Assembly: GCA_016930015.1 (NCBI GenBank)
Contig: JAFGHR010000036.1
Span: forward strand, 1-53,197
Direction: 5' to 3'
DNA: 53,197 nt
Source of the DNA: Anaerolineae bacterium
GTDB lineage: Bacteria; Chloroflexota; Anaerolineae; Aggregatilineales; Aggregatilineaceae
Made by a program: the position numbers and the translations under genes. The notes beneath the pieces were generated by a model, which was not told the origin of the DNA, ran no database searches, and worked only from the letters and a program-made list of their open reading frames with translations. Below are positions 23,861 to 44,437 of the stretch, one piece after another. Every line of letters starts with the position of its first letter. Position 1 is the first letter of the stretch.

Positions 23861-23952
23861 GATAACTGTCACAGATAACTGTGATAACTAGCGGTGACCG
23901 CTAAAAATAACAGTTATCGGCGTAGACAGGATTAGAACATGCGTGCTAAACT
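23861..23952 (+). promoter_or_regulatory. Operator/promoter cassette A upstream of the terminase-portal block
   Basis: GATAACTGT (23861-23869) is repeated directly (23874-23882) and inverted (ACAGTTATC, 23910-23918). TCACAG and CTGTGA form a dyad around ATAA. GCGGTGACCGC (23891-23901) is a palindrome. Then come a -35-like TAGACA (23923-23928), GAAC-N4-GTGC (23935-23946) and TAAACT as -10 (23947-23952). The same order of elements occurs in cassette B at 32041-32119. At least one dimeric repressor, perhaps with a LexA-like factor, is expected to act here. The 412-base gap 23732-24143 holds this cassette and a structured leader. Confidence 0.6.
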
Positions 23953-24074
23953 AAGGCTGCCCCGCAGGACCGGACGGGCGCGGACCCGCAAAACCATCAC
24001 CATACGGGCGGGTAGCCGTTAACACAGCCGTGAGGTGAGTTTCGTCCGGGCGTGCCGGGGGTGTTGAATCGGGC

Positions 24075-24103
24075 AGGGGCGTATGTGACCGGCATATGCC
24101 CCT
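24075..24103 (+). other. Hairpin in the long leader of the terminase operon
   Basis: AGGGGCGTATG (24075-24085) pairs with CATATGCCCCT (24093-24103) with a single G-T wobble and a seven-base loop, about 40 bases before the small-terminase ATG. The leader from the predicted -10 to the ATG is ~190 bases, long for a bacterial mRNA, and has no frame of note. Confidence 0.5.
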
Positions 24104-24143
24104 ACTGGGTTCTGAGCGGTTGGGGGATCGGAGGGAGCATGTT

Positions 24144-24728
24144 ATGAACCGTTACAAATCGAGGCCGCGCGACCGCCCACCCGTTGAAACACGGGTATGC
24201 CGCGCGATCCGGCTGCTGGCCGAAGGTAAGCCGCCGGGTGATGTGGCACAGCAGGTGCGTATCCTTCCGGCCACGCTGGCCGCGTGGCAGGAATCCGGGG
24301 ATTTTCAAGCGCTGCTGGCGTGCCTGAGCGACTACGGGCGCATGCGCTTCGTAGTTGGCGCGCTGCGCGACCTGACGCCGGACGCGATCGCGGCCCTGCG
24401 GCGGGCGCTGACCGGGCCGGATACACGCTGGGCTGTACAGGCCGCTCAGGAAGTCTTGAATCGCCTGGAGCGGTTAGACAATGACATGGCCGAAGGGGGT
24501 GAATCATCGTCCGTTCAAACCATTCGAGTGGAGTATGTCAACCGTGAGGGTCACACTGTTTCAACCACACCCTGGGCAGATCGACATCCTGCATCACCCG
24601 GCACGCTTCAAGGTGGTGGCCTGCGGTCGCCGCTTCGGGAAGACCGAGACGGGCAAGATTCTGCTGATCGAGCGGGCGCTGGCGGGCCGGATCGGGTGGT
24701 GGATCAGCCCGACGTACCGCATGGCTGA
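24144..24728 (+). CDS. Terminase small subunit-like protein
   Basis: 194 residues from the ATG at 24144, with GGAGGGAGC six to eight bases upstream. Residues ~15-50 form a helix-turn-helix-like segment (VCRAIRLLAEGKPPGDVAQQVRILPATLAAWQ), as in small terminases that bind pac/cos DNA. A helical segment follows (LRDLTPDAIAALRRALTGP). 'SVQTIRVEYVNREG' near 125-140 is the usual C-terminal end of such proteins. Beyond that the frame continues for ~50 low-complexity residues overlapping the large-subunit gene, so the true functional end is unclear. It is assigned largely by position before the large subunit. Confidence 0.65.
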   Translation: MNRYKSRPRDRPPVETRVCRAIRLLAEGKPPGDVAQQVRILPATLAAWQESGDFQALLACLSDYGRMRFVVGALRDLTPDAIAALRRALTGPDTRWAVQAAQEVLNRLERLDNDMAEGGESSSVQTIRVEYVNREGHTVSTTPWADRHPASPGTLQGGGLRSPLREDRDGQDSADRAGAGGPDRVVDQPDVPHG

Positions 24729-25734
24729 CGACGTATGGCGCAGCCTCAAAATCGCGCTGAATGGTGCTATCCAGGCCAAAAACGAGCACATGCGCCGCCT
24801 GGACCTGGTTGGCGGCGGTGTGATCCGCGTGTGCAGCGGGCACGATCCCGACGCGCTGCGCGGGGCCGGACTGGATGTGGCCGTGCTGGACGAGGCCGCT
24901 TACCTGCACCCGGACGTGTGGCGGGCTGCGATCCGTCCGGCGCTCGTGGACCGGCGCGGCGAAGCCTTGTTTCTCAGCACGCCGAACGGGCGTAACTGGT
25001 TTTGGGGCCTGTATATGCTCGGCCAGAATCCGGCATACGCCGACTGGCAGAGCTGGCGTTTTCCCACGACCGCCAACGCGCTGATCGACCCGGCTGAAGT
25101 CGAGGACGCGCGTCACCTGCTGCCGGAGCGTTTGTTTCGCCAGGAATACCTGGCCGAATTTCTGGCGGATTCGGGGCGCGTGTTCCGGCGCGTCGAAGCG
25201 GCGGCGACCGTCACGCCGGAAGTGGGTCCGCAGCCCGGCGAGCGGTACGTGTTTGGCGTGGACTGGGGCCGCGACAACGACTTTACCGCCGTGGCCGTGC
25301 TGGCCGCCCATTCGCGGCGGCTCGTGGCGCTCGACCGGTTTAACGAGATCGGCTGGTCGGTGCAGCGCGGGCGGCTGGCCGCGCTCGCGGATCACTGGCG
25401 GCCCGATGCCATCTGGGCCGAGGCGAACAGCATCGGCGGGCCGAACATCGAGGCGCTGCAATACGAGGGTTTGCCCGTGCTCCCGTTTACGATGACCGCC
25501 GCCAGCAAAGGGCCGCTGATCGAATCGTTGGCGCTGGCGCTGGAGCGTGATGAACTGGCCCTGCTGCCCGATCCGGTGCTGCTGGGTGAGCTGCAAGCTT
25601 ACACGCTCGAACGCCTGCTGAGTGGCCGGTTCCGGTATAACGCGCCGCCCGGCGGTCATGACGACACTGTGATCGCGCTCGCGCTGGCATGGCACGGCGT
25701 TTCCCAGACAGGCGCGAGCATTTCGTTTGTGTGA
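24535..25734 (+). CDS. Phage terminase large subunit
   Basis: 399 residues from the ATG at 24535, preferred over ATG 24481 because the family normally begins near 'HPGQ' and GTGGAG lies just upstream. The motor packages DNA into proheads. The ATPase has Walker A 'GRRFGKT' (31-37), Walker B 'VAVLDEA' with D119-E120, and coupling motif 'FLSTPNG' (147-152). The RNase H-like nuclease has D243 in 'FGVDWGRDND', E296 in 'IWAEANSIGG' and D376-D377 in 'GGHDDTVIALALA'. All catalytic residues are intact, so the enzyme is probably active and under selection. It is followed 53 bases later by the portal gene. Confidence 0.93.
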   Translation: MSTVRVTLFQPHPGQIDILHHPARFKVVACGRRFGKTETGKILLIERALAGRIGWWISPTYRMADDVWRSLKIALNGAIQAKNEHMRRLDLVGGGVIRVCSGHDPDALRGAGLDVAVLDEAAYLHPDVWRAAIRPALVDRRGEALFLSTPNGRNWFWGLYMLGQNPAYADWQSWRFPTTANALIDPAEVEDARHLLPERLFRQEYLAEFLADSGRVFRRVEAAATVTPEVGPQPGERYVFGVDWGRDNDFTAVAVLAAHSRRLVALDRFNEIGWSVQRGRLAALADHWRPDAIWAEANSIGGPNIEALQYEGLPVLPFTMTAASKGPLIESLALALERDELALLPDPVLLGELQAYTLERLLSGRFRYNAPPGGHDDTVIALALAWHGVSQTGASISFV

Positions 25735-25787
25735 TCGTGTGTTGATCCGGCGTTGGAAATGCGCAGGATGGAGCAAAGGAGGATCGT

Positions 25788-27137
25788 ATGGGGACCAAAG
25801 CGGGCCTTGTCGAACGGGCGCTGCGGCGTGTCGGGTATGTCAAGTGGCGTCCGAGCAGCGTGATTCACCGTGTGGAGTCGTCCGTGTGGACCGATCCGCC
25901 GCCGGTCACGTCTCCGGCAGTCGATCAGGCGGCGCAGTACGCGGGCGTGTATATGACGAGTCCCTGGGTGTATGTGGCCGTCAACCGCATCGCGGAAGCG
26001 GCGGCGCTGGTGCCGTTTAACGTGGTCGCATACGGCGCCGCGCACGGTGATCACTCGCGCGCGGGTGAGGTCGGCGGCGGGTCCGCAGGGACGCCGCCGG
26101 GCGAGGTCGCGCTGCAAGATCACCCCTTTGAGCGGCTGCTGCGGCGGCCTAATCCACTGATGAGCCGTTTTGAACTGATCGAACACACCGTCGGTAACCT
26201 GGAAATTCACGGCAACGCGTACTGGTTTCTGGCCGGTGAGCCGGGCGGCCTGCCGCGTGAATTGTGGCCGCTGCGCCCGGATCGCGTCAGCATCGTGCCC
26301 GACCCTCAGCGCGGCGTGCGCGGTTATGTCTACGAGGTGGACGGCTACCGCGTCCCGCTGGACGCTGCCGAAGTGGTCCATTTCCGCCGCTGGCATCCGG
26401 CCAATGACTATTACGGCCTCAGCGCGCTCGAAGCCGCGCGGCTGGCCGTGGAATCCGATCGCGCCATGGCCGACTGGAATCACCGTTATTTTGGTGAGGG
26501 CCTGGCCGTTCCGGCGGGGATCGTCGCCATCCGTGAGCAGGTGAGCGATGCGGACTACGAGCGGCTCAAGCGTGAATGGCGGCTGGCCTATGGTGGGCGC
26601 GAGCGCAAAACCGCGTTTTTACGCGGCGCGTCGGTGGAATGGCACAACATCGGCCTCAGCCAGCACGACATGGATTTTCTCAACGCGCGGCGCTTCAACC
26701 GTGAGGAGATTTTCCAGATTTTCGGCATTCCGGTCGGCATGTTTAGCGAAAACGCCACCGAAGCTAACGCCCTGGTTGGTGAGCGTGTATTTATCGAGCG
26801 CACGTTGTGGCCCAAGCTGGTACGTATCGCGGAAAAAATCACGACTGATCTGCTGCCGTTTTACGGCTCGAATCTGGTGGGGCGCTTTGACGACATCCGG
26901 CCCCAGGATCGCTCGGCCATGCTCGAAGAAGTACGTGTCGCGCGCGGCATCCTGACCGTGGACGAACTCCGCGCTCGTTACTTCCAGTTGGGGCCGCTGC
27001 CGCCGGATGACGCGCCATCCGATTCGCTGGATGACGCCGCATCCGATCCGCCGGAGCCACCAGAATCACCGGCTTCGCCGAATTCAGAGAATCCGCCGGG
27101 TTCGAAGAATCCGCATGATCCAGCGAGCGAGGACTAG
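25788..27137 (+). CDS. HK97-family phage portal protein
   Basis: 449 residues, with AAAGGAGGATC before the ATG. Portal rings sit at the capsid vertex and act as the DNA channel. Family hallmarks are 'SPWVYVAVNRIAEAAALVPF' (clip/wing start), 'NPLMSRFELIEHTVGNLEIHGNAYWFL', 'LWPLRPDRVSIVPD', 'VVHFRRWHPANDYYGLSALEAARLAVESD' and 'FNREEIFQIFGIPVGMF'. The final ~45 residues are a Pro/Ser/Asp-rich tail (PPEPPESPASPNSENPP), unusual for a portal. It lies in the terminase operon and ends four bases before a terminator hairpin. In an ordinary HK97-type phage the protease would follow; here HEAT and TIR genes intervene. Confidence 0.93.
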   Translation: MGTKAGLVERALRRVGYVKWRPSSVIHRVESSVWTDPPPVTSPAVDQAAQYAGVYMTSPWVYVAVNRIAEAAALVPFNVVAYGAAHGDHSRAGEVGGGSAGTPPGEVALQDHPFERLLRRPNPLMSRFELIEHTVGNLEIHGNAYWFLAGEPGGLPRELWPLRPDRVSIVPDPQRGVRGYVYEVDGYRVPLDAAEVVHFRRWHPANDYYGLSALEAARLAVESDRAMADWNHRYFGEGLAVPAGIVAIREQVSDADYERLKREWRLAYGGRERKTAFLRGASVEWHNIGLSQHDMDFLNARRFNREEIFQIFGIPVGMFSENATEANALVGERVFIERTLWPKLVRIAEKITTDLLPFYGSNLVGRFDDIRPQDRSAMLEEVRVARGILTVDELRARYFQLGPLPPDDAPSDSLDDAASDPPEPPESPASPNSENPPGSKNPHDPASED

Positions 27138-27140
27138 CCG

Positions 27141-27167
27141 GTATAGGGGCGCGCAGGCAGTGCCCCT
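27141..27167 (+). terminator. Terminator after the portal gene
   Basis: AGGGGC (27141-27146) and GCCCCT (27158-27163) form a short stem followed by TTTTT, directly after the portal stop codon. It separates the terminase-portal transcript from the HEAT gene. Confidence 0.65.
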
Positions 27168-27287
27168 TTTTCATTTACCGGGCGAAATACATAATGCACC
27201 GGGTAACCTGTGGGAGTACAATAGAATTATGACCCGGCGGCATGTCAATATTGGCCGGGAATAACAAAATAAGGGACAGGTATCCCC

Positions 27288-27653
27288 ATGCCATTAGACC
27301 CCAATGCCGTACCCAGCCTGCTGCGCGCCTTGCAGCATGATGACGTGTATGTGCGGATCGTCGCCGCTGAAGCGCTGGGCAAAATCGGTAAGCCGGTGGC
27401 GATTGCGTCCCTGTTCACGACTCTGAATGATCAGCGGGCGGACGTGCGGCGGCGCGTGGTGCGCGCCCTGGAACGGATCGGCGTAGAAATTGGCGGGGCG
27501 CAGGTGGTGCCCGGCCTGGAACAGGCGCTCTCTGACGAGGAGCGAGCCGTGTCATGGACCGCTGAAAACGCGCTGCGGCGGCTCGACATTTCCAGCTCAC
27601 GGGTCGTGCTCGCGCGCTGGTATGACACGAGCAAAAAACACGCAGCGGGCTAA
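27288..27653 (+). CDS. Small HEAT-repeat protein
   Basis: 121 residues containing about three HEAT repeats ('VPSLLRALQHDDVYVRIVAAEALGKIG', 'FTTLNDQRADVRRRVVRALERIG', 'LEQALSDEERAVSWTAENALRRL') and a basic C-terminal tail. There is no signal or membrane segment. The ATG at 27288 follows GGACAGGTATCCCC, a weak ribosome site. It is inserted between portal and capsid genes and closely resembles the HEAT part of the TIR-HEAT protein that follows. A scaffold or partner role in that set is inferred. Confidence 0.75.
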   Translation: MPLDPNAVPSLLRALQHDDVYVRIVAAEALGKIGKPVAIASLFTTLNDQRADVRRRVVRALERIGVEIGGAQVVPGLEQALSDEERAVSWTAENALRRLDISSSRVVLARWYDTSKKHAAG

Positions 27654-27988: not shown

Positions 27989-29563
27989 ATGGGCCATCTG
28001 TTTATTTCTTATCATGCTGATGATGCTGAATTTGCCATCGGGCTGATGCACCAGCTTGACGATGCGGGCTTTTCTGTTTGGGAGGATAACGAACACCTGC
28101 GGGATGGCGTGGATTGGCATGAAGCCATCGACCAGGCGATTCGTGAAGCGTCCGCGCTGATCGTGATCCTGACGCCTGCGGCCAAAGCATCCGAGCAGGT
28201 GATCTATGAATGGACCTTTGCGCTGGGCGTAGGCGTGGCCGTGATCCCCGTGTTACGCGAACAGACGGCGCTGCATCCTCGCCTGGAAACCCTGCCTGTT
28301 CTGGACTTCAGCGCAGATGCTCAGCCCTGGGGTAAGTTGGTCCGGCAGGTCCAGGAATCGACGGGCGGGCACCGGTCGCTGCCGGATGGGCACCGGTCGC
28401 TGCCGGCAGGTGGGCATGTCGGTGCCCATCAGGGGCGGCCCTCGTCACTGCTGGAACAGGCACAGCCCGGCGCCATGCCGCGTTTTTTAGAGCGTATTCG
28501 CAGCCGTGAGCATGCGCATGGTGACGATCTGGGCGCGCTTGACATGACTCGCCCGGATGCTGTGGATAAACTGATCGAGTTGCTGGACAGCCAGAACCGG
28601 GATACACGTATTTCCGCTGTGCGGCGGTTGGCCGACTGCGGTGAAAAAGCCGCGATTCCGGCGCTGATCCGGCTGCTGCGTGATGCGGATACGCGCGTGC
28701 GTGACGCGGCAGTGTATGCGCTGGGTCGACTCAAGGCGGCAGCAGCGGTTCCCGGTTTGTTAGAAGTGCTGCGCAGCGGGCGTCCTGGCCCGTTTGGTAA
28801 CGCGCTGAACAACCCGGTGATTGCAGAGGCGCTGCGTGAAATCGGTACACCCGCCGTGCCGGTTCTACTCGACGCCTTAAGTGACCAGGATTGGCGTGTT
28901 CGTCTTCAGGTGATCGAGACTCTAGGCAGCATTCGTGCCGCCGAAGCCGCCCCGATGCTGACCGGCATGCTGCATGATGCTGAATGGCGCGTGCGCTGGC
29001 GGGCTGCCGAGGCATTGGGCAAGCTCAACGCGACCGGTGCAGCGGTGCGTGACCTGTCGCTGGCATTGAGCGATAATAACGACGACGTGCGGATCGCGGC
29101 GGCGTGGGCGCTGCGCCAGATCAAAGACCCCGGTGCGATCCCGGCCTTGATCCGGGCGCTGCACGATTGCGAATGGCGTGTGCGCTGGACCGCTGCTGAA
29201 GCGCTGTGGACGATCGGTCCGGCGGCAGTGCCGCTGCTGTTGGATACCCTGCATGATCGGGATGATTATGTGCGGCGGGCGGCAGGGCGTGCCCTGGCCC
29301 AGATCGGCGAAACATCGGTGCCGGGTTTGGTCGCGCTGCTGGCTGATGATAACTGGGATGTGCGGGGCGCGGCGGCGGCGGCTTTGCACGAAATCGGTGA
29401 AGCGGCAGTACCCGCGCTGGTTTCCCGCCTGGTCGATGGCAATTGGCAGGCCGGTTGGGCGGCTGCCGAAGCCCTGCGCCAGATTGGCTCACCCGATGCG
29501 CTGGAGGCCGTTACCATGTGGGAAGACAATACCCTGGACGGGGACGATCCCGCCGAGGCATAA
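27989..29563 (+). CDS. TIR domain-HEAT repeat fusion protein 1
   Basis: 524 residues. Residues 1-~125 are a TIR domain: 'HLFISYHADDAEFAIGLMHQLDDAGFSVWED' at the start, and 'ASALIVILTPAAKASEQVIYEWTFALG' with E74 at the position of the catalytic glutamate of TIR NADases. A linker with two GHRSLP repeats (~127-140) follows. Residues ~185-510 are about ten HEAT repeats (e.g. 'PALIRLLRDADTRVRDAAVYALGRL'). TIR domains signal by cleaving NAD+ or making cyclic-ADP-ribose-type molecules; the HEAT solenoid would sense or bind a partner. It sits between portal and capsid genes and has a paralogue at 30574. No effector protein is adjacent, so it may act alone. Confidence 0.88.
   Translation: MGHLFISYHADDAEFAIGLMHQLDDAGFSVWEDNEHLRDGVDWHEAIDQAIREASALIVILTPAAKASEQVIYEWTFALGVGVAVIPVLREQTALHPRLETLPVLDFSADAQPWGKLVRQVQESTGGHRSLPDGHRSLPAGGHVGAHQGRPSSLLEQAQPGAMPRFLERIRSREHAHGDDLGALDMTRPDAVDKLIELLDSQNRDTRISAVRRLADCGEKAAIPALIRLLRDADTRVRDAAVYALGRLKAAAAVPGLLEVLRSGRPGPFGNALNNPVIAEALREIGTPAVPVLLDALSDQDWRVRLQVIETLGSIRAAEAAPMLTGMLHDAEWRVRWRAAEALGKLNATGAAVRDLSLALSDNNDDVRIAAAWALRQIKDPGAIPALIRALHDCEWRVRWTAAEALWTIGPAAVPLLLDTLHDRDDYVRRAAGRALAQIGETSVPGLVALLADDNWDVRGAAAAALHEIGEAAVPALVSRLVDGNWQAGWAAAEALRQIGSPDALEAVTMWEDNTLDGDDPAEA
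28367..28406 (+). repeat. 19-bp tandem repeat in the TIR-HEAT 1 linker
   Basis: GGGCACCGGTCGCTGCCGG occurs at 28367-28385 and again at 28388-28406 (period 21 bases), encoding the repeated GHRSLP of the interdomain linker. Confidence 0.8.
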
Positions 29564-29681: not shown

Positions 29682-30347
29682 ATGAAAAAGACGTTGCATT
29701 TCGTGAAATTCTCCTATGTGATGTTGGCCGTTATAGTGTGCTTGATGGCCGGTCTGGGGCAAGCGGTACCGGCGTATGCGGACCAAAGCGGGCCGGATGC
29801 GGCCTTCGTACAGGCCGAACCCCTTGCCGCCCGGTTTACGTTTAAGTGTCCCGGTGATGGCGTGGAAGTGGTGGACGGCAGCGGGAAATCCGTGCTGCGC
29901 GCATCATTCTCCCAGATCGCGCTGCCGCTGGCGGTGGCGATCGGCACCCAGCAAAACCAGCCGATCATATACGGGGCGGGGGTCAGCTTGTGGGCGCTGA
30001 AGTCGAACGAACTCCAGGCGCATAATGATTCGAATCCCGATCAAACCAAGGTGATCGTTCCGGCGAGTATTTGCGGCCCGATCGACTTCACGCCGGCGTA
30101 TTATGGTACGGTAACCATCGTGCAGCCGGTGCCCGTTTACCAGGTGGTGTACCAGCCGGTGGCGACGGTGACGGTTATACAGCCGGTAGTTGCCGCGCCT
30201 GGTGGTATTGTATACGTCGTGCAGCCGGGTGACACGCTCTACCGGATCGCGCTGCGTTACGGTTCGACGGTGGGCGCGATCGCTGCCGTCAACGGGATCG
30301 CCAACGTGAACCGAATTTACGTCGGCCAGCGGTTGATCATTCCTTAG
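29682..30347 (+). CDS. Secreted LysM-domain protein
   Basis: 221 residues. A signal peptide occupies residues 1-~33 (MKK, hydrophobic core, AYA cleavage). A beta-rich middle region of ~140 residues has a repetitive Val/Gln/Pro stretch ('VQPVPVYQVVYQPVATVTVIQPVV'). A single LysM domain lies at ~176-221: 'YVVQPGDTLYRIALRYGSTVGAIAAVNGI...IYVGQRLIIP'. LysM binds GlcNAc-containing glycans such as peptidoglycan, so the protein should sit at the cell wall. It lies between two TIR-HEAT genes. It could be a wall-attachment part of the same system or an unrelated neighbour. Confidence 0.85.
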   Translation: MKKTLHFVKFSYVMLAVIVCLMAGLGQAVPAYADQSGPDAAFVQAEPLAARFTFKCPGDGVEVVDGSGKSVLRASFSQIALPLAVAIGTQQNQPIIYGAGVSLWALKSNELQAHNDSNPDQTKVIVPASICGPIDFTPAYYGTVTIVQPVPVYQVVYQPVATVTVIQPVVAAPGGIVYVVQPGDTLYRIALRYGSTVGAIAAVNGIANVNRIYVGQRLIIP

Positions 30348-30573: not shown

Positions 30574-31911
30574 ATGGCGCATGTCTTTGTATCCTACAAA
30601 CACGATGACGGTGATTTCGCCGCCGCGCTCAAGCAGCACATCGAAGCGGCGGGATTTGATGTATGGATGGATATCGATTTGCGGGCGGGGGATGTGTGGC
30701 GTGAAGCTATCGACCACGCGCTCCGCCAGTCATACGTGTGTGTCGTGATCATGACTCCGGCGGCCAGCGAGTCACCGTATGTGACGTATGAATGGGCGTA
30801 TGCCTGGGGCGCGGGTGTGCGCGTGATCCCGGTGCTGCTGGAACCAACCGATTTGCATCCCCGCCTGGAAGCATTGCAATACCTTGATTTTACCGACCGG
30901 ATGAACCGGCCCTGGGACACATTACTTCAGCATATCGGTGATATTGCTGGCGAATACCAGGCTGTGGCGATACATGTGCCACGTGATGCGCCGCCCGCCG
31001 TCAAGCAGGCGGTTTTGGCCCTGGACAGTCCGGATTCCGATGAACGTGTGGCGGCGATGGATAGCCTGGCCCAGATGGATCACCCGGCGGCGGTGCAGGT
31101 GCTGCTCGGTGCATTGAATCACCCGACACGTGATGTACGCATTCAGGCCGTGATGCGACTGGCAGCCATGCCGGGTGTGACGGATGACCGGATAGCTCCG
31201 GTGCTGGTGGAAGCGCTGGAACATGACGATTACACGGTCCGCCGCGATGCCGCACGCGCTCTGAAAGACGTGGGTGATGCGGGCGCTGTGCCTAAATTGA
31301 TTGACCGGCTGCTAGATGAAGCATCGTCGGTGCGCCAGGCCGCGATCGGGGCGCTGGGTGCGCTGGGTGACGAGTCGGTGATCCCGCACCTGGTGGCGTA
31401 CCTGGATGACAAAACGTTTTTGGTTCGTAAGGCCGCTGTCGAAGCACTCGCCGGGTTTGGGGAAGCGGCGGTGCCGGGCCTGGTGAAAGCATTAGGCGAC
31501 GAACACCACGAAATCCGCCCGCTGGCGGCTGCTATTCTGGCCGATATCGGTCCGGCAGCAGTACCGGCGCTGCGCGACGCGTTAAACGACCCGGACTGGC
31601 GGGTGCGGGTCAATGCGGCGGCTACATTGGGTACTATTGGTGATGCGGTGGTTGTGCCGGACCTAATCCCGCTGCTGCGTGAACAGGGTCGCGAGGGCGG
31701 TGGAAGCCGGGCGGTGCGCCAGACAGCCGCCAGGGCACTGGGCCGGATCGGTGATCCGGCAGCGATACAGCCGCTCGTAACGGCCTTGAACGCCAAGGAT
31801 CACAAGGATGTCAAGGACGACATCGCCCGTGCCCTGTTGGCGATTGATACGCCGGAAGCCCGTCACGCGGTCGAGCAGTGGGCCAAACGTTCCCGCTGGC
31901 TCCCCCGGTAA
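30574..31911 (+). CDS. TIR domain-HEAT repeat fusion protein 2
   Basis: 445 residues, a paralogue of the protein at 27989 with a shorter linker. TIR domain 1-~120: 'HVFVSYKHDDGDFAAALKQHIEAAGFDVWMD' and 'VCVVIMTPAASESPYVTYEWAYAWGAG', with the putative catalytic glutamate E73. HEAT repeats run from ~145 to 440 (e.g. 'LVEALEHDDYTVRRDAARALKDVG', 'ALRDALNDPDWRVRVNAAATLG'). No signal or membrane segment is seen. It is placed directly upstream of the capsid operon regulatory cassette. An NAD+-consuming signalling or defence role is inferred from the TIR family; nothing in the sequence shows the trigger. Confidence 0.88.
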   Translation: MAHVFVSYKHDDGDFAAALKQHIEAAGFDVWMDIDLRAGDVWREAIDHALRQSYVCVVIMTPAASESPYVTYEWAYAWGAGVRVIPVLLEPTDLHPRLEALQYLDFTDRMNRPWDTLLQHIGDIAGEYQAVAIHVPRDAPPAVKQAVLALDSPDSDERVAAMDSLAQMDHPAAVQVLLGALNHPTRDVRIQAVMRLAAMPGVTDDRIAPVLVEALEHDDYTVRRDAARALKDVGDAGAVPKLIDRLLDEASSVRQAAIGALGALGDESVIPHLVAYLDDKTFLVRKAAVEALAGFGEAAVPGLVKALGDEHHEIRPLAAAILADIGPAAVPALRDALNDPDWRVRVNAAATLGTIGDAVVVPDLIPLLREQGREGGGSRAVRQTAARALGRIGDPAAIQPLVTALNAKDHKDVKDDIARALLAIDTPEARHAVEQWAKRSRWLPR

Positions 31912-32119: not shown

Positions 32120-32181
32120 AGAAAATGTCGACCGCAAGTGTGACCGCATTTGCGGCATACACGGGCAGGCAAGGAGGAACC

Positions 32182-34082: not shown

Positions 34083-34676
34083 TTACATCAGCGGGCTATT
34101 GGAGGGTGGGGCGTAGTCCAATACGTCCCCATCCGACTTATTATCATCGGTGAGTGTGCTGAACGTGATCATAAGGTGCAGTGTGCCGATGATGAATTCA
34201 TCACCGTGAGCCACGATGTGATCCTGGAATGGAATCAGCGCTTTACCGTTGAGATAAGTTCCGTTGGTGCTGCCCAGGTCGGTGATGATCAGGCGGTTGT
34301 CGTTTCGCTGAAGCTTACAATGCTCGCGTGAAACGCCGTGTTGGTGGGCGTTGAGGTGGTTCAGGTCCAAAAATGTTTCTGAATTCGTGCCCGATTTGCG
34401 GCCCAGAATGACCGGTTTGTCGAGCGAAACGAGCATACACGCGGACGAGGGAAAAAATTGCAGCAGCGCGTTTGCATGGGGTTCAAAATTGATCTGTTTT
34501 TGCAGGGTAGCAGAAGGCCGGCGGGTTAATGGGCTGGTGTCGGGGAGCCTGGCGTTAGCTAACGAGATGCCGCAGCGGGGGCACTCTGTTGCTGTCTGTG
34601 CGCAATGAAAGCCGCACTTTGGGCATGGGATGGGGGCCTGGGGTTGTTGGGCGGGAGTTTCTCTTGTATCGCGCAT
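34083..34676 (-). CDS. Zinc-ribbon FHA-domain protein 1
   Basis: 197 residues from the ATG at 34676 (a TTG at 34679 precedes it). Residues ~17-36 hold a CPKC...CPRC zinc ribbon. A polar linker follows, then an FHA domain at ~75-185 with 'VILGRKS', 'HGVSREHCKL' and 'DLGSTNGTYLNG', the loops that bind phosphothreonine. There is no kinase domain or membrane segment. It is the first of six paralogues on the minus strand between the capsid and head-tail connector genes. It may read phosphorylation by a Ser/Thr kinase encoded elsewhere. An upstream element TTGTATGATC (near 34717) is shared with the next FHA gene. Confidence 0.85.
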   Translation of the reverse strand: MRDTRETPAQQPQAPIPCPKCGFHCAQTATECPRCGISLANARLPDTSPLTRRPSATLQKQINFEPHANALLQFFPSSACMLVSLDKPVILGRKSGTNSETFLDLNHLNAHQHGVSREHCKLQRNDNRLIITDLGSTNGTYLNGKALIPFQDHIVAHGDEFIIGTLHLMITFSTLTDDNKSDGDVLDYAPPSNSPLM

Positions 34677-34838
34677 CAATGATCATGTCCAGGGTACGTG
34701 GCAGGGTGCCAATGCATCGATCATACAATATAAACGCTAATAGAAACATAGTGAAATGTGAAAACTATATGAAAACACTAATGTGTGACTATTGTTACTG
34801 CATGAATGGATGCGCGATGCGGGGGGGGGTGCTGTATG

Positions 34839-35435
34839 TTACATGAGGGGTGTGGAGGAGCTTGGCGCTTGTTCCAGCACGTCATTTTCAGAGGAAGCGA
34901 GGGGGCCGTTTACGGATGTGAAGGTGATCAGCAAATGCAGCGTGCCGATGATAAGTTCGTCACCATGCGCGACAATGTGTTCCTGGTAGGGGAGCAGCGC
35001 CTTACCGTTCAGGTAGGTGCCATTTGTGCTGGCCAGATCAATGACGATCAGGTGGTTGTCACGGCGCCGAAGCTGGCAGTGTTCGCGTGAAACACCGTGT
35101 TGTTTGGCCCTCAGGTGGGTCAGGTCCAGCAGGTTCTCGGTGGTGTCCCCGATTTGGCGGCCCAGCGTCAGCGTGCGTTCCAGAGTCGCCAGCACACAGG
35201 TGCCGGAGGGCAAAAATTGGAGGATGACATTGTCGTTTGGTGGAAAAATACCGTGGTCAGACGGCAGAGGCAGCGCCGGATTCTGAACCGGTGCAGTGGC
35301 CACCGGATCAAAGTCTTCGAGATCGCGCCCGCAGTGGACACAGTGCTGGTCGCCCACATGGACGATGTGCCCGCAGCGAGGACAAAGAATTGGCCGGGTA
35401 TCTTCTGATGATATATCGCCTGACGGGCAAGACAT
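34839..35435 (-). CDS. Zinc-ribbon FHA-domain protein 2
   Basis: 198 residues, with GGGAG upstream of the ATG. The N-terminal zinc ribbon reads CPRC...CVHC (~18-36). The FHA domain (~75-180) has 'LTLGRQIGD', 'HGVSREHCQL' and 'DLASTNGTYLNG'. It is very similar to FHA protein 1, including the C-terminal 'SSSTPLM' against 'PSNSPLM'. That suggests recent tandem duplication. Each gene has its own upstream gap of ~160 bases, so they are probably transcribed separately. The -10-like TTGTATGATGA lies near 35492 on the minus strand. Confidence 0.85.
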   Translation of the reverse strand: MSCPSGDISSEDTRPILCPRCGHIVHVGDQHCVHCGRDLEDFDPVATAPVQNPALPLPSDHGIFPPNDNVILQFLPSGTCVLATLERTLTLGRQIGDTTENLLDLTHLRAKQHGVSREHCQLRRRDNHLIVIDLASTNGTYLNGKALLPYQEHIVAHGDELIIGTLHLLITFTSVNGPLASSENDVLEQAPSSSTPLM

Positions 35436-35597: not shown

Positions 35598-36185
35598 TTA
35601 TGATAGAAGCTGTGACGTGCTGAGTTGAGTTACTGTAAAAAATATCGTAAACGTGAGTTCGCCGATGCGGATATCGTTACCATGCGCCACAACTCGATCG
35701 TGATGGGCGGCGATGCGCTCGCCGTTGATGAACGTGCCGTTGCTGCTGCCCATGTCCACAATCAACAACTGTTTTCCGTACCGCCGGAGTGTGCAGTGCA
35801 CGCGTGAAACGCCCAAATCGGCGGCGCCAATGCCGCTCAGATCAAGCAGGTTTTTCACGGTTTCAGAGTAACCCCGGCCCAGGATCAAGGGTTTGTCGAG
35901 TTGGGATGATATCACCAGGCCGGAGGGTCGGAATTGGAATATGGCGCTGGCCTGCGGCAGGAACAGGTCCAGGTGTGCGGACGCAAGCGAGGATGTTGTG
36001 GTGGGATGTTTGCCCTGTGACGGTGCTGGCTGCGCATCATAATCAAGCCATGTCGTGCGGTGATTGCTCGGTTGTGAGAGCGGCGCACCGCACTGCCGGC
36101 ACCGGGTATCGTCGGAACGACAGTAGTATCCACAATGCAGGCATACTACCGGGCGTTCTTGTGTGGAAAGTGTTGTATTAGGCAT
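35598..36185 (-). CDS. Zinc-ribbon FHA-domain protein 3
   Basis: 195 residues. Zinc ribbon CLHC...CRQC at ~15-34, then a longer Pro/Ser/His-rich linker and an FHA domain (~85-185) with 'LILGRGYSE', 'LGVSRVHCTL' and 'DMGSSNGTFINGE'. The phosphothreonine-contact residues (Gly-Arg, Ser-Arg-x-His, Ser-Asn-Gly) are retained. It is the third gene of the minus-strand array. The C-terminus lacks the SxPLM tail found in proteins 1 and 2. Confidence 0.84.
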   Translation of the reverse strand: MPNTTLSTQERPVVCLHCGYYCRSDDTRCRQCGAPLSQPSNHRTTWLDYDAQPAPSQGKHPTTTSSLASAHLDLFLPQASAIFQFRPSGLVISSQLDKPLILGRGYSETVKNLLDLSGIGAADLGVSRVHCTLRRYGKQLLIVDMGSSNGTFINGERIAAHHDRVVAHGNDIRIGELTFTIFFTVTQLSTSQLLS

Positions 36186-36503: not shown

Positions 36504-37016
36504 TTACCGTGATAGGGCAGTGGTGAAGATCACCAACACGTTCAGTTCGCCCAGGGTCAGGCGGTCATTGTGAGCCAGCACATGTTCCTGGTTAGGGCCC
36601 AGCCGCATGTTGTTCACGAACGTACCGTTTGAGCTGTCGAGATCGGTAATCGTGAGGTGGGTACCATGCCGGCGAAGCAGGCAATGCTGGCGCGACACGC
36701 CGTAGCGGTCAGCATCGAGATCGGTGAGATCAAGGGTGTCATAGGTCTGCGTGTAGATTCCACGCCCCAGGATCAAGGGTTTGTCCAGCGCTGAAGACAC
36801 AAACGTGCCGGTTGGCGCAAACTGTAGGATGACGTTTGTCATGGGCGTAAAGGTGCCCCGTTTGCGCAGTGATTCAGTCGCCATATGAGTTGATAGATCA
36901 ATATCCGGGGCAAACGACGACGGGTTCAGGGGAAAGGTCGTCGAATAGCTCCGCGATTGGAGAGAAGATTCGGATGGTTGTGAAGCAGGATGATGTCGCG
37001 AATTTTTTGGTGGCAT
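36504..37016 (-). CDS. FHA-domain protein 4, lacking the zinc ribbon
   Basis: 170 residues from the ATG at 37016, where CGGGGGA lies ~10 bases upstream; the frame is open to 37043. The N-terminal ~55 residues are Ser/Pro/His-rich with no CxxC pairs, unlike its five neighbours. The FHA domain (~65-165) has 'LILGRGIYT', 'YGVSRQHCLL' and 'DLDSSNGTFVNN'. The ribbon was probably lost or never gained. Peptide-binding residues are conserved. It has its own terminator. Confidence 0.83.
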   Translation of the reverse strand: MPPKNSRHHPASQPSESSLQSRSYSTTFPLNPSSFAPDIDLSTHMATESLRKRGTFTPMTNVILQFAPTGTFVSSALDKPLILGRGIYTQTYDTLDLTDLDADRYGVSRQHCLLRRHGTHLTITDLDSSNGTFVNNMRLGPNQEHVLAHNDRLTLGELNVLVIFTTALSR

Positions 37017-37847
37017 ACTGGTAAATCCCCCGCACCTGACCAATTCCTGATACTTTTTAATTCAATTTTAATTTTACAGGAAAAAGCACGTGAATGTCGT
37101 AAAAAGCGTATGAGTGTTTGTAAAGGGTTTGTTTACGTTGTGCTTTCAACCGGTGGAGGGATGAGGATAACGCAGTAGGGACGTACGCCCGGCTGTACGT
37201 CCCTAAAAAGAAATCCTGAAGCTGACTGCACGAACCACACAAGGAGTTGGAGTATGCCCACATTCAGCCGGTTTCTGGTTGCCAGCATGCAGGCGGTGGT
37301 GTGTGTAGAACGAACATGCTGGGAGAAGACTTTCGCTGAAATCCCGTTTTGACGGTGGTGAGTTAGCCAACTGCGGTCAGGTAACTCACCTGAAAGGAAT
37401 AGAAATCGTTATGTTAGTACGTCGATGCCGGGCCGGTAACGTTTCGTGTTCCTGATTACTCGGTGTGAACCGGTGCTTTCGAGTAAGCACCTGCTTGCGC
37501 GTATCGACGCCGTGGGGACTTAATTGGGCACTACGCGGATACAGGATGCGAGTCATGGCAAGGTTAGCGAAAAAAGTTGAAAGAGTGCCCGATGATGTGG
37601 TGCCCCACGGCGCCGACAATACGCCTTACTCATTTGGTAAAAAGTGTCCGATACGTCCTTAAACAATACTTCATTCACCCTTTGTTATGTTTGTATTATA
37701 CATCAAAAAATTGATTTTGCGCAAGTAGTTAATGATAAATTTGTGAATTTCTTGTGAAAGCGCGGAAATAACGCGCATAACATACGCGAACTGATGCGGT
37801 GCGCCTGGTGTGCGGTTATTGGTTGGTTAACTCGAATGAGGGTGGTG
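37017..37847. other. 831-base non-coding region with several hairpins
   Basis: No convincing protein gene. Perfect hairpins: an 11-bp stem at 37176-37186/37195-37205 (GGGACGTAC/GTACGTCCC); GGTGAGTTA/TAACTCACC at 37357-37365/37382-37390; GGTGCTT/AAGCACC at 37472-37478/37485-37491. A 32-codon frame (ATG 37254 to TGA 37352) has AAGGAG seven bases upstream, but its product is unremarkable. The AT-rich part 37680-37770 probably holds promoters for FHA gene 4 or a + strand RNA. A structured RNA is possible. Confidence 0.45.
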
Positions 37848-38384
37848 TTAGGCGTCGCCGAACGCGACCACGATATGCAGGGTACCCATGATCAGCCGGT
37901 CGCCGTGAGCGATCAGGTATTCACGGTGAGGGTTCAGTTTTACGCCATTGAGATACGTGCCGTTGGTACTGTTCAAGTCGGCCACATACAGCCGGTTGTT
38001 TTTCGGGCGGAGCTGGCAGTGAGCGCGCGAGACGCCGTGTGTTTGGGCATTATGCTGGCTCAGGTCGATCAGGTTGTCTGGCGCGCCTAGTAAGGGATCA
38101 CGCCCCAGGGTGACCGTTCCGGTTGGGATCAGCGGCAGGCATGCGCCCGACGGCAAAAACTGGAGCAGCAGCAGCGTTTGTGAGGTGAAGCCTGTTTCTT
38201 CCGCCTGCCGGAACGGAGTGGCCATTGGTTTACGGTTGAGTGGCCCGGTCATAATTTGATCACGGGTTAGCGGTTGATGGCAGTATAGGCACAGGTTGTC
38301 GTCGGGATAACAAAAATGCCCACAGTGGCAGCACTGGATTGGACTTCCACTAACAGGGGTGGTGGCATCAGATGTTCCGGGCAT
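37848..38384 (-). CDS. Zinc-ribbon FHA-domain protein 5
   Basis: 178 residues from the ATG at 38384, with AAAGGGG seven bases upstream; the longer frame to 38474 adds a segment unlike its paralogues. Zinc ribbon CCHC...CLYC at ~18-37, then an FHA domain (~70-175) with 'VTLGRDPLLG', 'HGVSRAHCQL' and 'DLNSTNGTYLNG'. It ends soon after the last FHA strand ('VAFGDA'). It is the fifth paralogue of the minus-strand array. Confidence 0.84.
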   Translation of the reverse strand: MPGTSDATTPVSGSPIQCCHCGHFCYPDDNLCLYCHQPLTRDQIMTGPLNRKPMATPFRQAEETGFTSQTLLLLQFLPSGACLPLIPTGTVTLGRDPLLGAPDNLIDLSQHNAQTHGVSRAHCQLRPKNNRLYVADLNSTNGTYLNGVKLNPHREYLIAHGDRLIMGTLHIVVAFGDA

Positions 38385-38538
38385 GGAAACCCCTTTTGCA
38401 GGACACAGTTCCTGAAAATACACGACTGTTAAGTTCATCGTATCGCCTTGTTCATAAAATTCACATAAAAGCAAAGTTAAAAGGAATTAATCCGTTCGGG
38501 CTGGTGCTGAATACATTCCGAAACCGAGATCGGCGGAT

Positions 38539-39090
38539 CTATGCCGGTGGCAGGTTGGCAAATGAAACGTAGAAATGCAGTGATCCGAGGATCAACTTGT
38601 CGCCGTGGGCTACAGCATGGCGGTGAAAAGGCAGCAGCGATTCACCGTTTAGAAACGTGCCGTTAGTGCTGCCCAGGTCGGTTACAACAAGCTGGTTAGC
38701 CCAGCGCTCAAGGCTGCAATGCGTGCGTGAAACGCCGTGCTGAACGGCATTGAACTGGGTCAGGTCAATCGCGTCTTGTTCGTCCGAGATGACTTCGCCG
38801 CGCCCCAGAATGACGGGTTTGTCAAGCGCCAGGGTGAAGCATTGGCCCGATGGTAGACACTGCAAGATGATTTCTGTTCCCGGCGCAAAACGCGTGTTGC
38901 CCGGTGTATCAACCGGCATGGTGGACGGGGAGCGTTTGAGCATATGGGTGTGGCACGGGCGTTCGGGCGTGGGAGGATCGATTGGGTATTCACATTTGAG
39001 ACAGCGTGTGGCGTTTGATGATAATTCACTGCCACATTGTGGGCACCGTAATGGATTGTGCTCTGGCTGACTGGCATTTGGTAATGGCAC
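38539..39090 (-). CDS. Zinc-ribbon FHA-domain protein 6
   Basis: 183 residues from a GTG at 39090 with AAGGAC upstream. Zinc ribbon CPQC...CLKC at ~16-33, a linker, then an FHA domain (~75-180) with 'VILGRGEV', 'HGVSRTHCSL' and 'DLGSTNGTFLNGE'. It is the last gene of the array and divergent from the head-tail connector gene at 39275; the 184-base gap must carry both promoters. Phosphothreonine-contact residues are intact. Confidence 0.85.
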   Translation of the reverse strand: MPLPNASQPEHNPLRCPQCGSELSSNATRCLKCEYPIDPPTPERPCHTHMLKRSPSTMPVDTPGNTRFAPGTEIILQCLPSGQCFTLALDKPVILGRGEVISDEQDAIDLTQFNAVQHGVSRTHCSLERWANQLVVTDLGSTNGTFLNGESLLPFHRHAVAHGDKLILGSLHFYVSFANLPPA

Positions 39091-39274: not shown

Positions 39275-40147
39275 ATGCGTAATACCTATGCGACACTGGC
39301 GGGAATCCGGCGGTATGTAGGGCTGTCCGCAGCCCAAACGAGTGACGATGATCTGTTAATGCAGTTGGTCCAGGCGGCGTCACGCCTGATCGAAGGCTGC
39401 ACCGGGCGGCGGTTTTACCCGCTGCGCCAGGCGCGATCCTATACTTGTCCCGGCGCGTCCGGGCCGGACACATCCGGGCCGGATACGGGCTTTTTGGTGT
39501 TGGACGGCGATTTGTTGAGCCTGCACACGCTGACCAACGGCGACGGCAGCACGATTTCGACGGAGGCGCTGCACCTGCTGCCATCCGGGACGGTGGTCAA
39601 GTCCGGCATCGCGTTGGATCGCACCCAGGCCGTTTTTACGCATACCGGCGATCCGGTGGAGGCGATCACGGTGGATGCGACGTGGGGCTTTCACCCGGAT
39701 TGGCCGGACGTGTGGGCGGCATCGGGCGACAGCGTGCAGGACGATCCCCTGTCGGACAGCGCCACTTCGATCACGGTGAGCGATGCCGACGGCGCGGATG
39801 CCAGCGGGGTTACACCGCGTTTTGCCGCCGGGCAGTTGATCCGTATTGAGGATGAATATGTACATGTGCTGGCGGTCGATACGGACACGAACACGCTGAC
39901 GGTCGCGCGCGGCGCCAACGGCACGACTGCCACCAGCCACGCGGCGAGTACGAGTATGTTTGTCTACCAGCCCCCGGCGGATATCCAGCAGGCATGCTGG
40001 CGGGTCGCGGCGTGGTTGTACCGCCAGAAGGACGCCGGGTTTGTGCGTGTGACCGGCAGTATGCGCGGCCAGGTAGTGATTCCGCCTGCGCTGCCCGCCG
40101 ACATCCAGCAGATTCTGGAACCGTACCGGCGCGTGCGCGTGTCGTAA
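39275..40147 (+). CDS. Phage head-tail connector-like protein
   Basis: 290 residues, with TAAGGAGGGAGTC before the ATG. The N-terminal ~65 residues, 'YATLAGIRRYVGLSAAQTSDDDLLMQLVQAASRLIEGCTGRRFYP', match gp6/connector-type adaptors that dock under the portal. The middle is a beta-rich insertion of ~150 residues (DADGADASGVTPRFAAGQLIRIEDEYVHVL). The end 'PPADIQQACWRVAAWLYRQKDAGFVRVTGSMRG.VVIPPALPADIQQILEPYRR' is the usual connector C-terminus. So the gene is about twice the normal length because of the insertion. It starts the third + strand phage-like block. Confidence 0.85.
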   Translation: MRNTYATLAGIRRYVGLSAAQTSDDDLLMQLVQAASRLIEGCTGRRFYPLRQARSYTCPGASGPDTSGPDTGFLVLDGDLLSLHTLTNGDGSTISTEALHLLPSGTVVKSGIALDRTQAVFTHTGDPVEAITVDATWGFHPDWPDVWAASGDSVQDDPLSDSATSITVSDADGADASGVTPRFAAGQLIRIEDEYVHVLAVDTDTNTLTVARGANGTTATSHAASTSMFVYQPPADIQQACWRVAAWLYRQKDAGFVRVTGSMRGQVVIPPALPADIQQILEPYRRVRVS

Positions 40148-42914: not shown

Positions 42915-42944
42915 GGCTGTCGGAGGAAACGAAAGGGGGCTTTC

Positions 42945-43460
42945 ATGGCCTGGACTTCACCTAAAACATGGGAGGCGGGCGAGCTGGTTACCGCGACCCT
43001 GTTTAACACGCACCTGCGCGACAACCTGAACGCGCTCAAAAGCCCGCCCAGCCAGCAGATTCTACGCGACAACAGCGGCAACTATACCACCACGAGCACG
43101 AGTTTTGTCGCCATCGACAGCACTAACCTGAAATGCACCATCACCACCAACGGCGGCGATGTGCTGGTCTGGTTTGTGGGTAGTTTTTCGGCCAGCGTGG
43201 CCGGTTACGATGTGGGCCTGGATATCCGCATCGACGGCACGACGCGCCTGGGTAGTGATTTCACCTGGGGGCTGGCGGAAGACTATGAACTGTCTACCAA
43301 CGCCCGCCCGATCACGCTGGGGCCGGTGATCGTTTCCGGCCTGGACGCAGGCGAGCACTCGTTCGAGATCATGTGGCGCACCGCGTCCGGCCAGACGGCG
43401 CAGCTTCGCTCGGATGCGGGGCAGGTGCCCGCGATCCTGGTGGCACGGGAGGTGAGCTAA
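42945..43460 (+). CDS. Tail-fibre-like protein
   Basis: 171 residues. The N-terminus 'AWTSPKTWEAGELVTATLFNTHLRDNLNALKSPPS' is a typical opening of phage tail fibre or minor tail proteins. The remainder is a single beta-sandwich-like domain (TSTSFVAIDSTNLKCTITTNGGDVLVWFVGSFSAS) that recalls C1q/jelly-roll fibre tips. It is weakly preceded by GGAGGAAACG further upstream. It overlaps the next gene by one base (TAATG), so the two are translationally coupled. Confidence 0.75.
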   Translation: MAWTSPKTWEAGELVTATLFNTHLRDNLNALKSPPSQQILRDNSGNYTTTSTSFVAIDSTNLKCTITTNGGDVLVWFVGSFSASVAGYDVGLDIRIDGTTRLGSDFTWGLAEDYELSTNARPITLGPVIVSGLDAGEHSFEIMWRTASGQTAQLRSDAGQVPAILVAREVS

Positions 43461-44062
43461 TGGCCGCGTATCAGGACGTGATGTGTACTAAAGCGGCGGT
43501 GAATCCGGACCGCCTGTGTGACGAGCTGATCGCGGTCCTGGGTGATTGTTTCGTTGACCTGGTCATCGGCGGCGCGGAACCCGGCGAGCTGCACGTGATC
43601 CTGGCGGCGGATACGCCCGCCGAGCTGATCGAGTTGGTCAGCGCAGTAGTGTCGGCGCACGATGCCTATGCCGTTGATCCTGCGCCGCCCGAACCGGACA
43701 CGCCGCAGCCGCAGCCGGTCGGCGATGTGCTGGACATCGTTTTTTCATTGGACGCCATCAACATCGCGCGGCTGGATGCTGACCTGCGGGCCGCGTTGGG
43801 ACAGGACTTTATCGGGCTTAGCGGCGGGCCGGGCCAACAGGTGCGGGTACATGTGCGCGCCGGGGCGGATGCCGCCGTGATCGCGGATATCGCGCCGCTG
43901 GTGGCGGCCCACGATCCCGAACAACTCACGGCGGCGCAGCAGGTCGCCGAGGAACAGGCCGCGTTAGTGGCGGCGCTGCGAGCCAAGCCGCGTGATTCAT
44001 GGACGGACAGCGACAGGGATAACGCCCTGTTGTGGCTGTTCGAGCGCCTATCGTCCGAATGA
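43460..44062 (+). CDS. Phage-cluster protein with an internal duplication
   Basis: 200 residues from the ATG at 43460, which overlaps the previous stop as TAATG and has GGGAGGTG upstream. Two ~55-residue halves are alike: 'DRLCDELIAVLGDCFVDLVIGG...LHVILAADTPAELIELVSAVVSAHDA' and 'ARLDADLRAALGQDFIGLSGG...VRVHVRAGADAAVIADIAPLVAAHDP'. They are joined by a Pro-rich linker (PAPPEPDTPQPQP). A C-terminal helix follows ('SDRDNALLWLFERLSS'). Small proteins of this type often follow fibre genes in phages. The role is unknown. Confidence 0.68.
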   Translation: MAAYQDVMCTKAAVNPDRLCDELIAVLGDCFVDLVIGGAEPGELHVILAADTPAELIELVSAVVSAHDAYAVDPAPPEPDTPQPQPVGDVLDIVFSLDAINIARLDADLRAALGQDFIGLSGGPGQQVRVHVRAGADAAVIADIAPLVAAHDPEQLTAAQQVAEEQAALVAALRAKPRDSWTDSDRDNALLWLFERLSSE

Positions 44063-44089
44063 GTTTTTCAGGTATACGGGAAGGGGCCG

Positions 44090-44437
44090 GTGATAGAAAC
44101 CATGATCGATACGTTGGTAACCGAACAAACGCTCGCGTTGTGGCAGGTTCTGGGGACAGTGTTGGGTACGCTCCTGCTGGCGGCGGCTACGCTGTGGGCC
44201 GGGCGTCAGATCACGCAGCAGGCGCGCGAACTGTGGCGCGTGGTGCGCGGACATATGCCGGACGTGGTCGCGGCGGTGGATCAGCCCGCCGATCCGTTGA
44301 TTGTGCAGTTGGCGAAACTCACGACGGTTCCGGCGGCGGTATGGGCGGTATTTCTGCCCGCGTTTTTAGAATCGCTGGCTGAGGGGCTGGACGCGGCTCT
44401 GAACGAGTCCGCGCCCGGTGATGGTGCGGGCGCGTAA
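44090..44437 (+). CDS. Small membrane protein at the end of the phage-like cluster
   Basis: 115 residues if started at GTG 44090, three bases after GGGAAGGGG; ATG 44102 is an alternative. One hydrophobic helix at ~19-37 (QVLGTVLGTLLLAAATLWAG) is followed by a helical amphipathic domain. Position after fibre genes and the single helix recall a holin, but sequence alone does not support lysis, and no endolysin is nearby. A bidirectional terminator follows. Confidence 0.6.
   Translation: MIETMIDTLVTEQTLALWQVLGTVLGTLLLAAATLWAGRQITQQARELWRVVRGHMPDVVAAVDQPADPLIVQLAKLTTVPAAVWAVFLPAFLESLAEGLDAALNESAPGDGAGA

Follow-up and report, generated by a model that had tools for sequence, protein, structure and literature searches.

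Gene content of the locus

Here we describe a block of phage-type genes at positions 23,861 to 44,437 of a 53,197-nucleotide stretch of DNA from an Anaerolineae bacterium (GenBank assembly GCA_016930015.1, contig JAFGHR010000036.1, positions 1 to 53,197), referred to below as the window, within an assembly of 4.04 Mb in 132 contigs. On the plus strand and in phage order, the block encodes a TerS-like small terminase, the large terminase TerL, a portal, a prohead protease fused to the major capsid protein, a head-tail adaptor, a predicted tail terminator, a hub-like protein and a fibre-like protein, together with two small genes (Table 1). A HEAT-repeat gene, two TIR-HEAT genes and a LysM gene occupy the interval between portal and capsid, and six antisense FHA genes that between capsid and adaptor. 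An initial annotation made from the sequence alone had placed the genes in this way, and Pfam and PHROG matches bear it out, all six FHA genes included. The gene order is kept in the family and the gene content across the order, and the block is thus more than a chance assembly.

The window's family, Aggregatilineaceae, is called f1 and the other families of its order f2 to f8. The order is one that we take to be that called SBR1031 or Aggregatilineales by GTDB. Genomes of relatives carry G-numbers, and the suffix p marks prophage-like or second copies.

The base composition looked host-like to the first annotator, and indeed the GC content at third codon positions of the block's phage genes is similar to that of the flanking genes. 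Neither integrase nor replication genes occur among the 24 window proteins in Pfam scans, as had been stated. ARAGORN found no tRNA in the window, and no search for attachment (att) sites was made. The accompanying statement that the block has no lysis gene is uncertain, because the 115-residue protein at its end has a hydrophobic stretch and is possibly holin-like; homologues with 56-67% identity occur in G001, G017, G016, G002 and G015. The accessory genes also recur in relatives. The short HEAT protein lies near portal or capsid in G013, G014, G015, G016 and G017 (tblastn), the LysM gene has relatives in G001 (between portal and capsid) and in G011 (downstream of the portal), and G005 has, by eye, an open reading frame like the TerS-like gene upstream of TerL.

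Table 1. Genes of the block, with window coordinates and the evidence for each assignment
Feature	Coordinates	Strand	Evidence
TerS-like small terminase (helix-turn-helix)	24096..24728	+	PHROG 2538 E 0.0017; overlaps listed TerL start
TerL, large terminase	24481..25734	+	PHROG E 7e-48; ATPase and nuclease residues intact
Portal (HK97 type)	25788..27137	+	Pfam PF04860 E 1.6e-60
Short HEAT-repeat protein, accessory	27288..27653	+	Pfam HEAT_2
TIR-HEAT protein 1, resident accessory	27989..29563	+	Pfam TIR_2 E 1.6e-22 and HEAT; in locus clade
LysM protein, accessory	29682..30347	+	Pfam LysM E 1.8e-17
TIR-HEAT protein 2, resident accessory	30574..31911	+	Pfam TIR_2 E 3e-28; in locus clade
Prohead protease fused to major capsid protein	32125..34044	+	Pfam Phage_capsid E 1.2e-10; protease weak, PHROG E 0.007-0.008
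FHA gene 1, zinc-ribbon-like N-terminus	34083..34679	-	Pfam FHA
FHA gene 2, zinc-ribbon-like N-terminus	34839..35435	-	Pfam FHA
FHA gene 3, zinc-ribbon-like N-terminus	35598..36185	-	Pfam FHA
FHA gene 4	36504..37043	-	Pfam FHA
FHA gene 5	37848..38474	-	Pfam FHA
FHA gene 6, zinc-ribbon-like N-terminus	38539..39090	-	Pfam FHA
Head-tail adaptor (Ad1/gp6-like) with inserted tail-tip-like domain	39275..40147	+	PHROG head-tail adaptor E 2e-17
Predicted tail terminator (lambda gpU-like fold), 145 aa	40309..40746	+	AlphaFold2 model and Foldseek
Hub-like protein with LamG insert, 720 aa	40752..42914	+	LamG E 2.7e-17; alignment; position
Fibre/adhesin-like protein	42945..43460	+	Homologue directly after hub-like gene in prophage G047p and relatives
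Small protein after fibre gene	43373..44062	+	Weak tblastn matches in f1 and G084; resembles prophage proteins beside fibre gene, by eye
115-aa protein, one hydrophobic stretch by eye, possible holin-like lysis factor	44090..44437	+	Translation

Distribution, inheritance and selection

Matches to the head and packaging genes are spread across the order. Among 154 genomes, portal was found in 111, capsid in 111, TerL in 115 and adaptor in 112, with portal, capsid and TerL mostly in single copy; the corresponding counts in the 90 better genomes (at least 90% complete and at most 5% contaminated, as stated for the f1 set) are 73, 70, 72 and 71. GyrA, searched by the same method, was found in 150 of the 154 and in all 90 better ones. 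Within its own family the window portal matches 14 of 18 genomes including its own, and 8/8 of the better ones; the portals of the 13 relatives are 77-84% identical with one long match each, G014 having a second, partial match at 39%. Ten of the 111 portal genomes match weakly (25-32% identity), and the other 101 fall in f1 (14/18), f2 (4/5), f5 (1/1), f6 (81/98) and f7 (1/11), with none in f3 (0/10), f4 (0/2) or f8 (0/9). TerL matches at 51-58% occur in 6/9 f8 genomes. One of the f8 genomes, G150, also has a divergent compact cluster (L245, G150:C39, about 5294-13440; portal 30%, capsid 35%, terminator 46%), its TerL (53%) being on a different contig. Several TerL copies are present in some genomes; three members of one f6 genus (G127, G125, G109) have six to nine TerL matches, some of them fragments, and one portal match each.

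Close capsids are nearly confined to the order: in a sample of 396 genomes of the class, a capsid match at E<=1e-30 was found in 39, of which 31 belong to the order and eight lie outside it at 33-48% identity. All but two of 80 named portal loci are titled Chloroflexota, some of them Aggregatilineales. The two others, L100 and L149, are titled Pleurocapsa minor and Bacteroidetes bacterium and have the same portal at 55% and 60%, which suggests mislabelled or contaminated assemblies. Every matching INPHARED record is below 60% identity; among the best eight per query, identities are 25-27% for capsid, 30-34% for TerL and 27-32% for portal, and the G131 hub has no INPHARED match. Two IMG/VR contigs, L153 and L154, encode proteins that, where compared, are 97-100% identical to those of the chromosomal f7 genome G142; for L153, identity is 100% in the adaptor, terminator, hub-like and fibre-like proteins. 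Both are probably misfiled host DNA, a warning that some viral-database contigs may be host chromosome.

The annotator had proposed looking for the same gene order in relatives, and it is present, at the same place in close ones. Most f1 genomes read have one locus in this order, several being cut by contig ends, and the sugar-phosphate mutase gene pgm follows it in 6/6 genomes that reach that far; such constancy of order and place does not support a recent mobile insertion. Elsewhere the set is spread over several host loci. In G011, itself an f1 genome, capsid and adaptor lie about 45 kb from TerL and portal; the TerL-portal pair is separate from the capsid-adaptor pair in the f2 genomes G018, G019 and G021; and in f6 the genes are further apart than in f2, as in the single-contig genome G094, where the portal lies 2.7 kb, TerL 244 kb, the adaptor 1313 kb and the capsid 1350 kb along the contig. 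The genes in between, where read, are ordinary host-like genes by eye. Scattered over the chromosome in this way, the f6 set could presumably not package itself. The description of the phage genes as broken up by TIR-HEAT and FHA genes does not hold generally, since these reside in the f1 locus and ordinary host genes separate the phage genes elsewhere.

Divergence of the set follows that of the host. Across 21 genomes (20 for capsid, G021 being left out; 16 for adaptor, 14 for terminator and 11 for the fibre-like protein), the mean pairwise protein distance is 0.342 for GyrA, 0.340 for portal, 0.366 for capsid, 0.409 for TerL and 0.549 for adaptor. Mantel correlations with GyrA are 0.87 for TerL, 0.79 for portal, 0.71 for capsid and 0.76 for adaptor (p 0.0005 each), and within f6 they are 0.88, 0.85 and 0.81 for TerL, portal and capsid. 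In a tree including 36 of the 80 named portal loci after thinning, portals of f1, f2 and f6 group together in a clade of 42 (support 98) that contains no viral-database rows and is adjoined by f7 and four viral-database contigs.

The ratio of nonsynonymous to synonymous substitution (dN/dS) is low for TerL (0.12-0.27, nine pairs), portal (0.11-0.21, nine) and capsid (0.12-0.22, five), next to 0.13-0.145 for the control pgm (two pairs). In the two pairs with pgm scored, synonymous differences of TerL, portal and capsid are 0.353-0.395 and 0.430-0.451, versus 0.358 and 0.482 for pgm. Frames are intact, and the picture is not one of relaxed selection. The Walker and nuclease residues of TerL, reported as intact from the window alone, are invariant in 21/21 proteins, and the H/S/E columns of the protease are kept in 19/20 capsid rows, the remaining row being a gap; we take these residues to have their customary roles. 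Purifying selection acts on the head, packaging-motor and head-tail neck genes, which diverge with the host. Long-term selection of a reduced capsid-making set, as first suggested, agrees with its retention in the order, mostly in single copy, with host-congruent divergence and low dN/dS.

These data bear on whether the block is a decaying or ordinary prophage shared by chance. Its structural genes do have phage homologues, and prophage-like relatives occur in the same order: G047p, G017p and G073p have a homologous protease-capsid and adaptor, and G047p also has homologues of TerL, terminator, hub-like and fibre-like genes in the same order. These elements differ from the window in having long proteins at the tape-measure place and adaptors that are 28-38% identical (41% for G017p in another comparison); relative to the window, the capsid part of G017p and G073p is 40-55% and the protease part about 65% identical. 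In one such copy (L235-L236, G073:C7), the protease-capsid pieces share 64% and 55% identity with the window, almost the level of the scattered f6 copies, but the adaptor shares about 30%. Against a prophage stand divergence at the GyrA rate and congruent with the host, dN/dS near that of pgm, the fixed place in f1, the scattered yet intact f6 genes and the lack of an integrase in the scans described above. We reject this explanation as highly improbable on the grounds of host-congruent divergence and fixed place, the case resting on divergence and dN/dS in f1, f2 and f6. The reading we favour, with a probability of roughly 0.6, is a vertically inherited, domesticated DNA-packaging particle, that is, a system of the order resembling a gene transfer agent (GTA).

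Neck and tail genes without a recognised tube

Among PDB chains, the domain inserted in the adaptor has matches to phage tail-tip and minor-tail proteins (E 6e-6 and 3.5e-5). The gene that follows had been called tail-completion-like; by its predicted fold it is a tail terminator. The AlphaFold2 model has a predicted local distance difference test score (pLDDT) of 74 and a predicted template modelling score of 0.68, and in a Foldseek comparison with PDB ranks 1-12 are all phage lambda structures (gpU or tail cap; best E 5.5e-3, none reaching E 0.001, probability 0.91-1.0). The PHROG tail terminator matches 3/17 relatives, with a best E of 0.0017. Sequence searches of PDB were uninformative for both hub and terminator.

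In relatives, the next phage-type gene past the terminator is the hub-like gene, and in G001 and G009 an antisense gene that is hydrolase-like by eye lies between the two. Neither a tail tube nor a tape measure was found in the window set in the interval from terminator to hub, as the initial annotation had indicated. Across the 18 f1 genomes, the tape-measure model PF10145 had no match (control: 7/14 well-known genomes), and a major-tail-protein model matched one marginally (E 0.0085, inside a 2258-residue frame); the latter matched 0/14 controls and is hence a weak test. The compact versions G142, G150p and G097p likewise have no tape-measure-like gene between terminator and hub. In prophage G047p, four genes of 78, 146, 170 and 795 residues separate the terminator and hub homologues, so that the hub homologue comes after a long gene; the 795-residue product resembles a tape measure only in length and place, and the part of it compared with PHROG gave no useful match. 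A 1695-residue protein of prophage G017p matches tape-measure families (E 6e-4). In f6, the genes that separate adaptor from terminator were considered as a possible tail tube or sheath and rejected, being by eye a membrane transporter and a small host-like protein.

These findings also bear on whether the set is a full siphovirus-like GTA, with tail tube and tape measure of unrecognised families elsewhere in the genome. Such an arrangement is favoured by the usual role of a tail terminator, which is to cap a tube, by the wide separation of individual genes of the set in f6, and by the use of one model each in the searches for tube and tape measure. The compact versions, in which terminator and hub have no tape-measure-like gene between them, and the f1 model results speak against it, and we consider it unlikely.

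The LamG domain of the initial annotation does lie inside the 720-residue hub-like protein. It spans residues about 212-450 in the window, is apparently also present in G009 (match over residues 1-442) and is not in 14 others aligned. Alignments of hub and terminator offered no conserved stretch for a collection scan, and scans with single hubs returned nothing, the L153 contig alone or a weak match within the LamG region. After the fibre-like gene of G041 (L306, 7954-8346) lies a 130-residue protein with hydrophobic stretches that resembles a G047p protein by eye and is possibly a holin; Pfam gives it a weak match to a domain of unknown function.

TIR-HEAT genes and the proposed particle

A TIR-HEAT gene lies upstream of the capsid gene in 11/12 f1 genomes with at least 2 kb available upstream (the window's genome, G001, G002, G003, G005, G008, G011, G014, G015, G016 and G017), at 0.6 to 5.1 kb in the nine genomes computed; G004, G010 and G012 have too little upstream sequence to be counted. 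The probability that a TIR gene falls by chance in the 6 kb before the capsid gene is 0.9-3.7% per genome (nine genomes), and the combined product was not used because it assumes independence, which related genomes lack. The 12 TIR domains from the locus (ten genomes, G015 being outside the tree) form one group (100/100) apart from 20 sampled non-locus domains of six f1 genomes; TIR matches number 3 to 32 per genome. All 12 have the YEW motif, whose glutamate we take to be catalytic. In G011 the TIR gene stays with the capsid although TerL and portal lie elsewhere. The second TIR-HEAT gene has a dN/dS of 0.18-0.49 (five pairs).

Antisense FHA genes lie between capsid and adaptor in 13/13 f1 genomes that have this stretch, numbering one to six each. 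The window has six, G012 five and the other f1 genomes one to three, numbers that indicate repeated local expansion. Neither TIR nor FHA was matched in the compact f7 cluster of G142. With PADLOC models, both the TIR and the HEAT domains gave matches; among the five phage-type proteins scanned, only the fibre-like one did so, and weakly (E 4e-4).

A capsid-based device that works without transfer between cells, for instance a compartment or decoy in which DNA or proteins of an invading phage are caught and TIR-HEAT raises the alarm, would accord with these resident TIR-HEAT genes, with the resemblance of their domains to models in defence systems and with the lack of a detected tail tube. We regard it as quite unlikely: several families retain the parts for delivery (adaptor, terminator, hub-like and fibre-like proteins), and the TIR-HEAT linkage is seen in f1 only, and there not in every genome, whereas the head set is order-wide.

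What the set does, be it gene transfer or another device, we infer from its genes. Under the favoured GTA-like reading, these bacteria probably make phage-like, DNA-carrying particles with a shortened tail. The protease-capsid fusion would build a small head, into which TerL would pump host DNA by way of the portal. A nozzle would consist of the adaptor, the terminator as a ring, and the hub-like and fibre-like proteins; that it is very short is suggested by the lack of a detected tube or tape measure between terminator and hub. In f1, a TIR-HEAT NADase beside the capsid gene may sense assembly and kill or open the producer, releasing the particles; alternatively, it may abort production when a real phage interferes. 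Tentatively, we raise the possibility of an ancient Chloroflexota GTA-like lineage in which the tail tube was lost and the terminator joined to the hub, with scattered genes evolving much like housekeeping genes and, in one family, an orthologous TIR-HEAT NADase wired to the capsid gene for producer death or release.

Several observations weigh against the GTA-like reading. The set is known here from its genes, particle, packaged DNA and transfer being inferred, and a lysis gene can be assigned only without confidence, the candidates for killing the producer being the holin-like protein and TIR-HEAT. Presence is patchy: portal and capsid were not found in f3 and f4, the f7 portal is in one of 11 genomes and f8 copies are divergent. 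A GyrA tree of 41 genomes, in which f8 is labelled as lacking the set despite its divergent copies, needs at least 8 presence changes, which fits an early gain followed by several losses, or a degree of transfer, and the f7 portal falls outside f1, f2 and f6, at odds with that tree. The terminator correlates with GyrA at 0.73 overall and at 0.46 within f6 (p 0.09, not significant), and the fibre-like protein not significantly (r 0.36, p 0.06). Adaptor, terminator and hub evolve faster, with dN/dS of 0.14-0.47 (four pairs), 0.18-0.46 (four) and 0.28-0.60 (three). The putative hub is identified by position and weak homology, its model (pLDDT 30) being unusable, and the genome could have tail genes elsewhere that escaped the two models through divergence. 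The G007 capsid is preceded by sugar-nucleotide genes (by eye), with no TIR within 2.3 kb upstream. Second, prophage-like capsid copies in the order (G073, G046, G017, G080, G062) are 57-65% identical to the window in the protease and 33-55% in the capsid part, and such close protease parts make exchange with phages possible.

Encapsulins are likewise HK97-fold shells kept by their hosts; they are not known to have a terminase or portal, both of which are kept here with TerL motor residues intact. Compared with GTAs, the set has genes of tailed-phage type for structure and packaging (neither tube nor tape measure was found), vertical inheritance and, in f6, f2 and G011, a spread over several host loci, the window itself being a single locus; it appears GTA-like by these features, membership not being proven. 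Three independently exapted GTA groups are described as formally classified, in Alphaproteobacteria and spirochaetes (PMC9662315). The RcGTA of Rhodobacter capsulatus (Rhodogtaviriformidae) similarly has vertically inherited, phage-derived head and packaging genes at more than one locus (PMC9953437, PMC9662315), and differs in its 49-nm tail (PMC9662315); the present set is in another phylum, with head genes scattered in f6. BaGTA of Bartonella, likened here by description, is domesticated with a main structural cluster and has some tailless or short-tailed particles (PMC9662315). The Caulobacter GTA, which is linked to an immunity-type module as the f1 locus is, is reported to need the immune-like LypABC for lysis and release (PMC13236601). 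LypABC is CARD-NLR-like with peptidases (PMC13236601), whereas here a TIR-HEAT gene of hypothetical role lies beside the capsid gene; LypABC is the nearest precedent for that role.

New GTAs are described in a 2024 review as hard to find because they look like defective prophages (PMC11841831). Our literature search, covering titles and abstract openings of the papers listed, with preprints outside its scope, found no report of a Chloroflexota GTA or of such a system. A large group known mostly from metagenome-assembled genomes would gain a likely DNA-transfer device and a conserved gene list. The set suggests that a tail tube may be dispensable to a phage neck. It may also be the second example of a GTA-like particle with an immune-type module linked to it.

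Other compact clusters were seen as well. G097 has, beside its scattered set, a second and different one (L238, G097:C8:88001-108000, about 3496-15600). It lies among host genes, has no long tape-measure-like gene, and encodes TerL-like, portal, capsid, adaptor-like, terminator-like, hub-like and fibre-like proteins (some recognised by eye) as well as a protein resembling lytic transglycosylases. Some genomes of genus g29 (G067, G068, G066; L246-L248, L237) have no close copies of the usual set and have divergent compact phage-head clusters instead; one of these clusters, which has no long tape-measure-like gene, gives a major-tail-protein-like match (E 0.0027).

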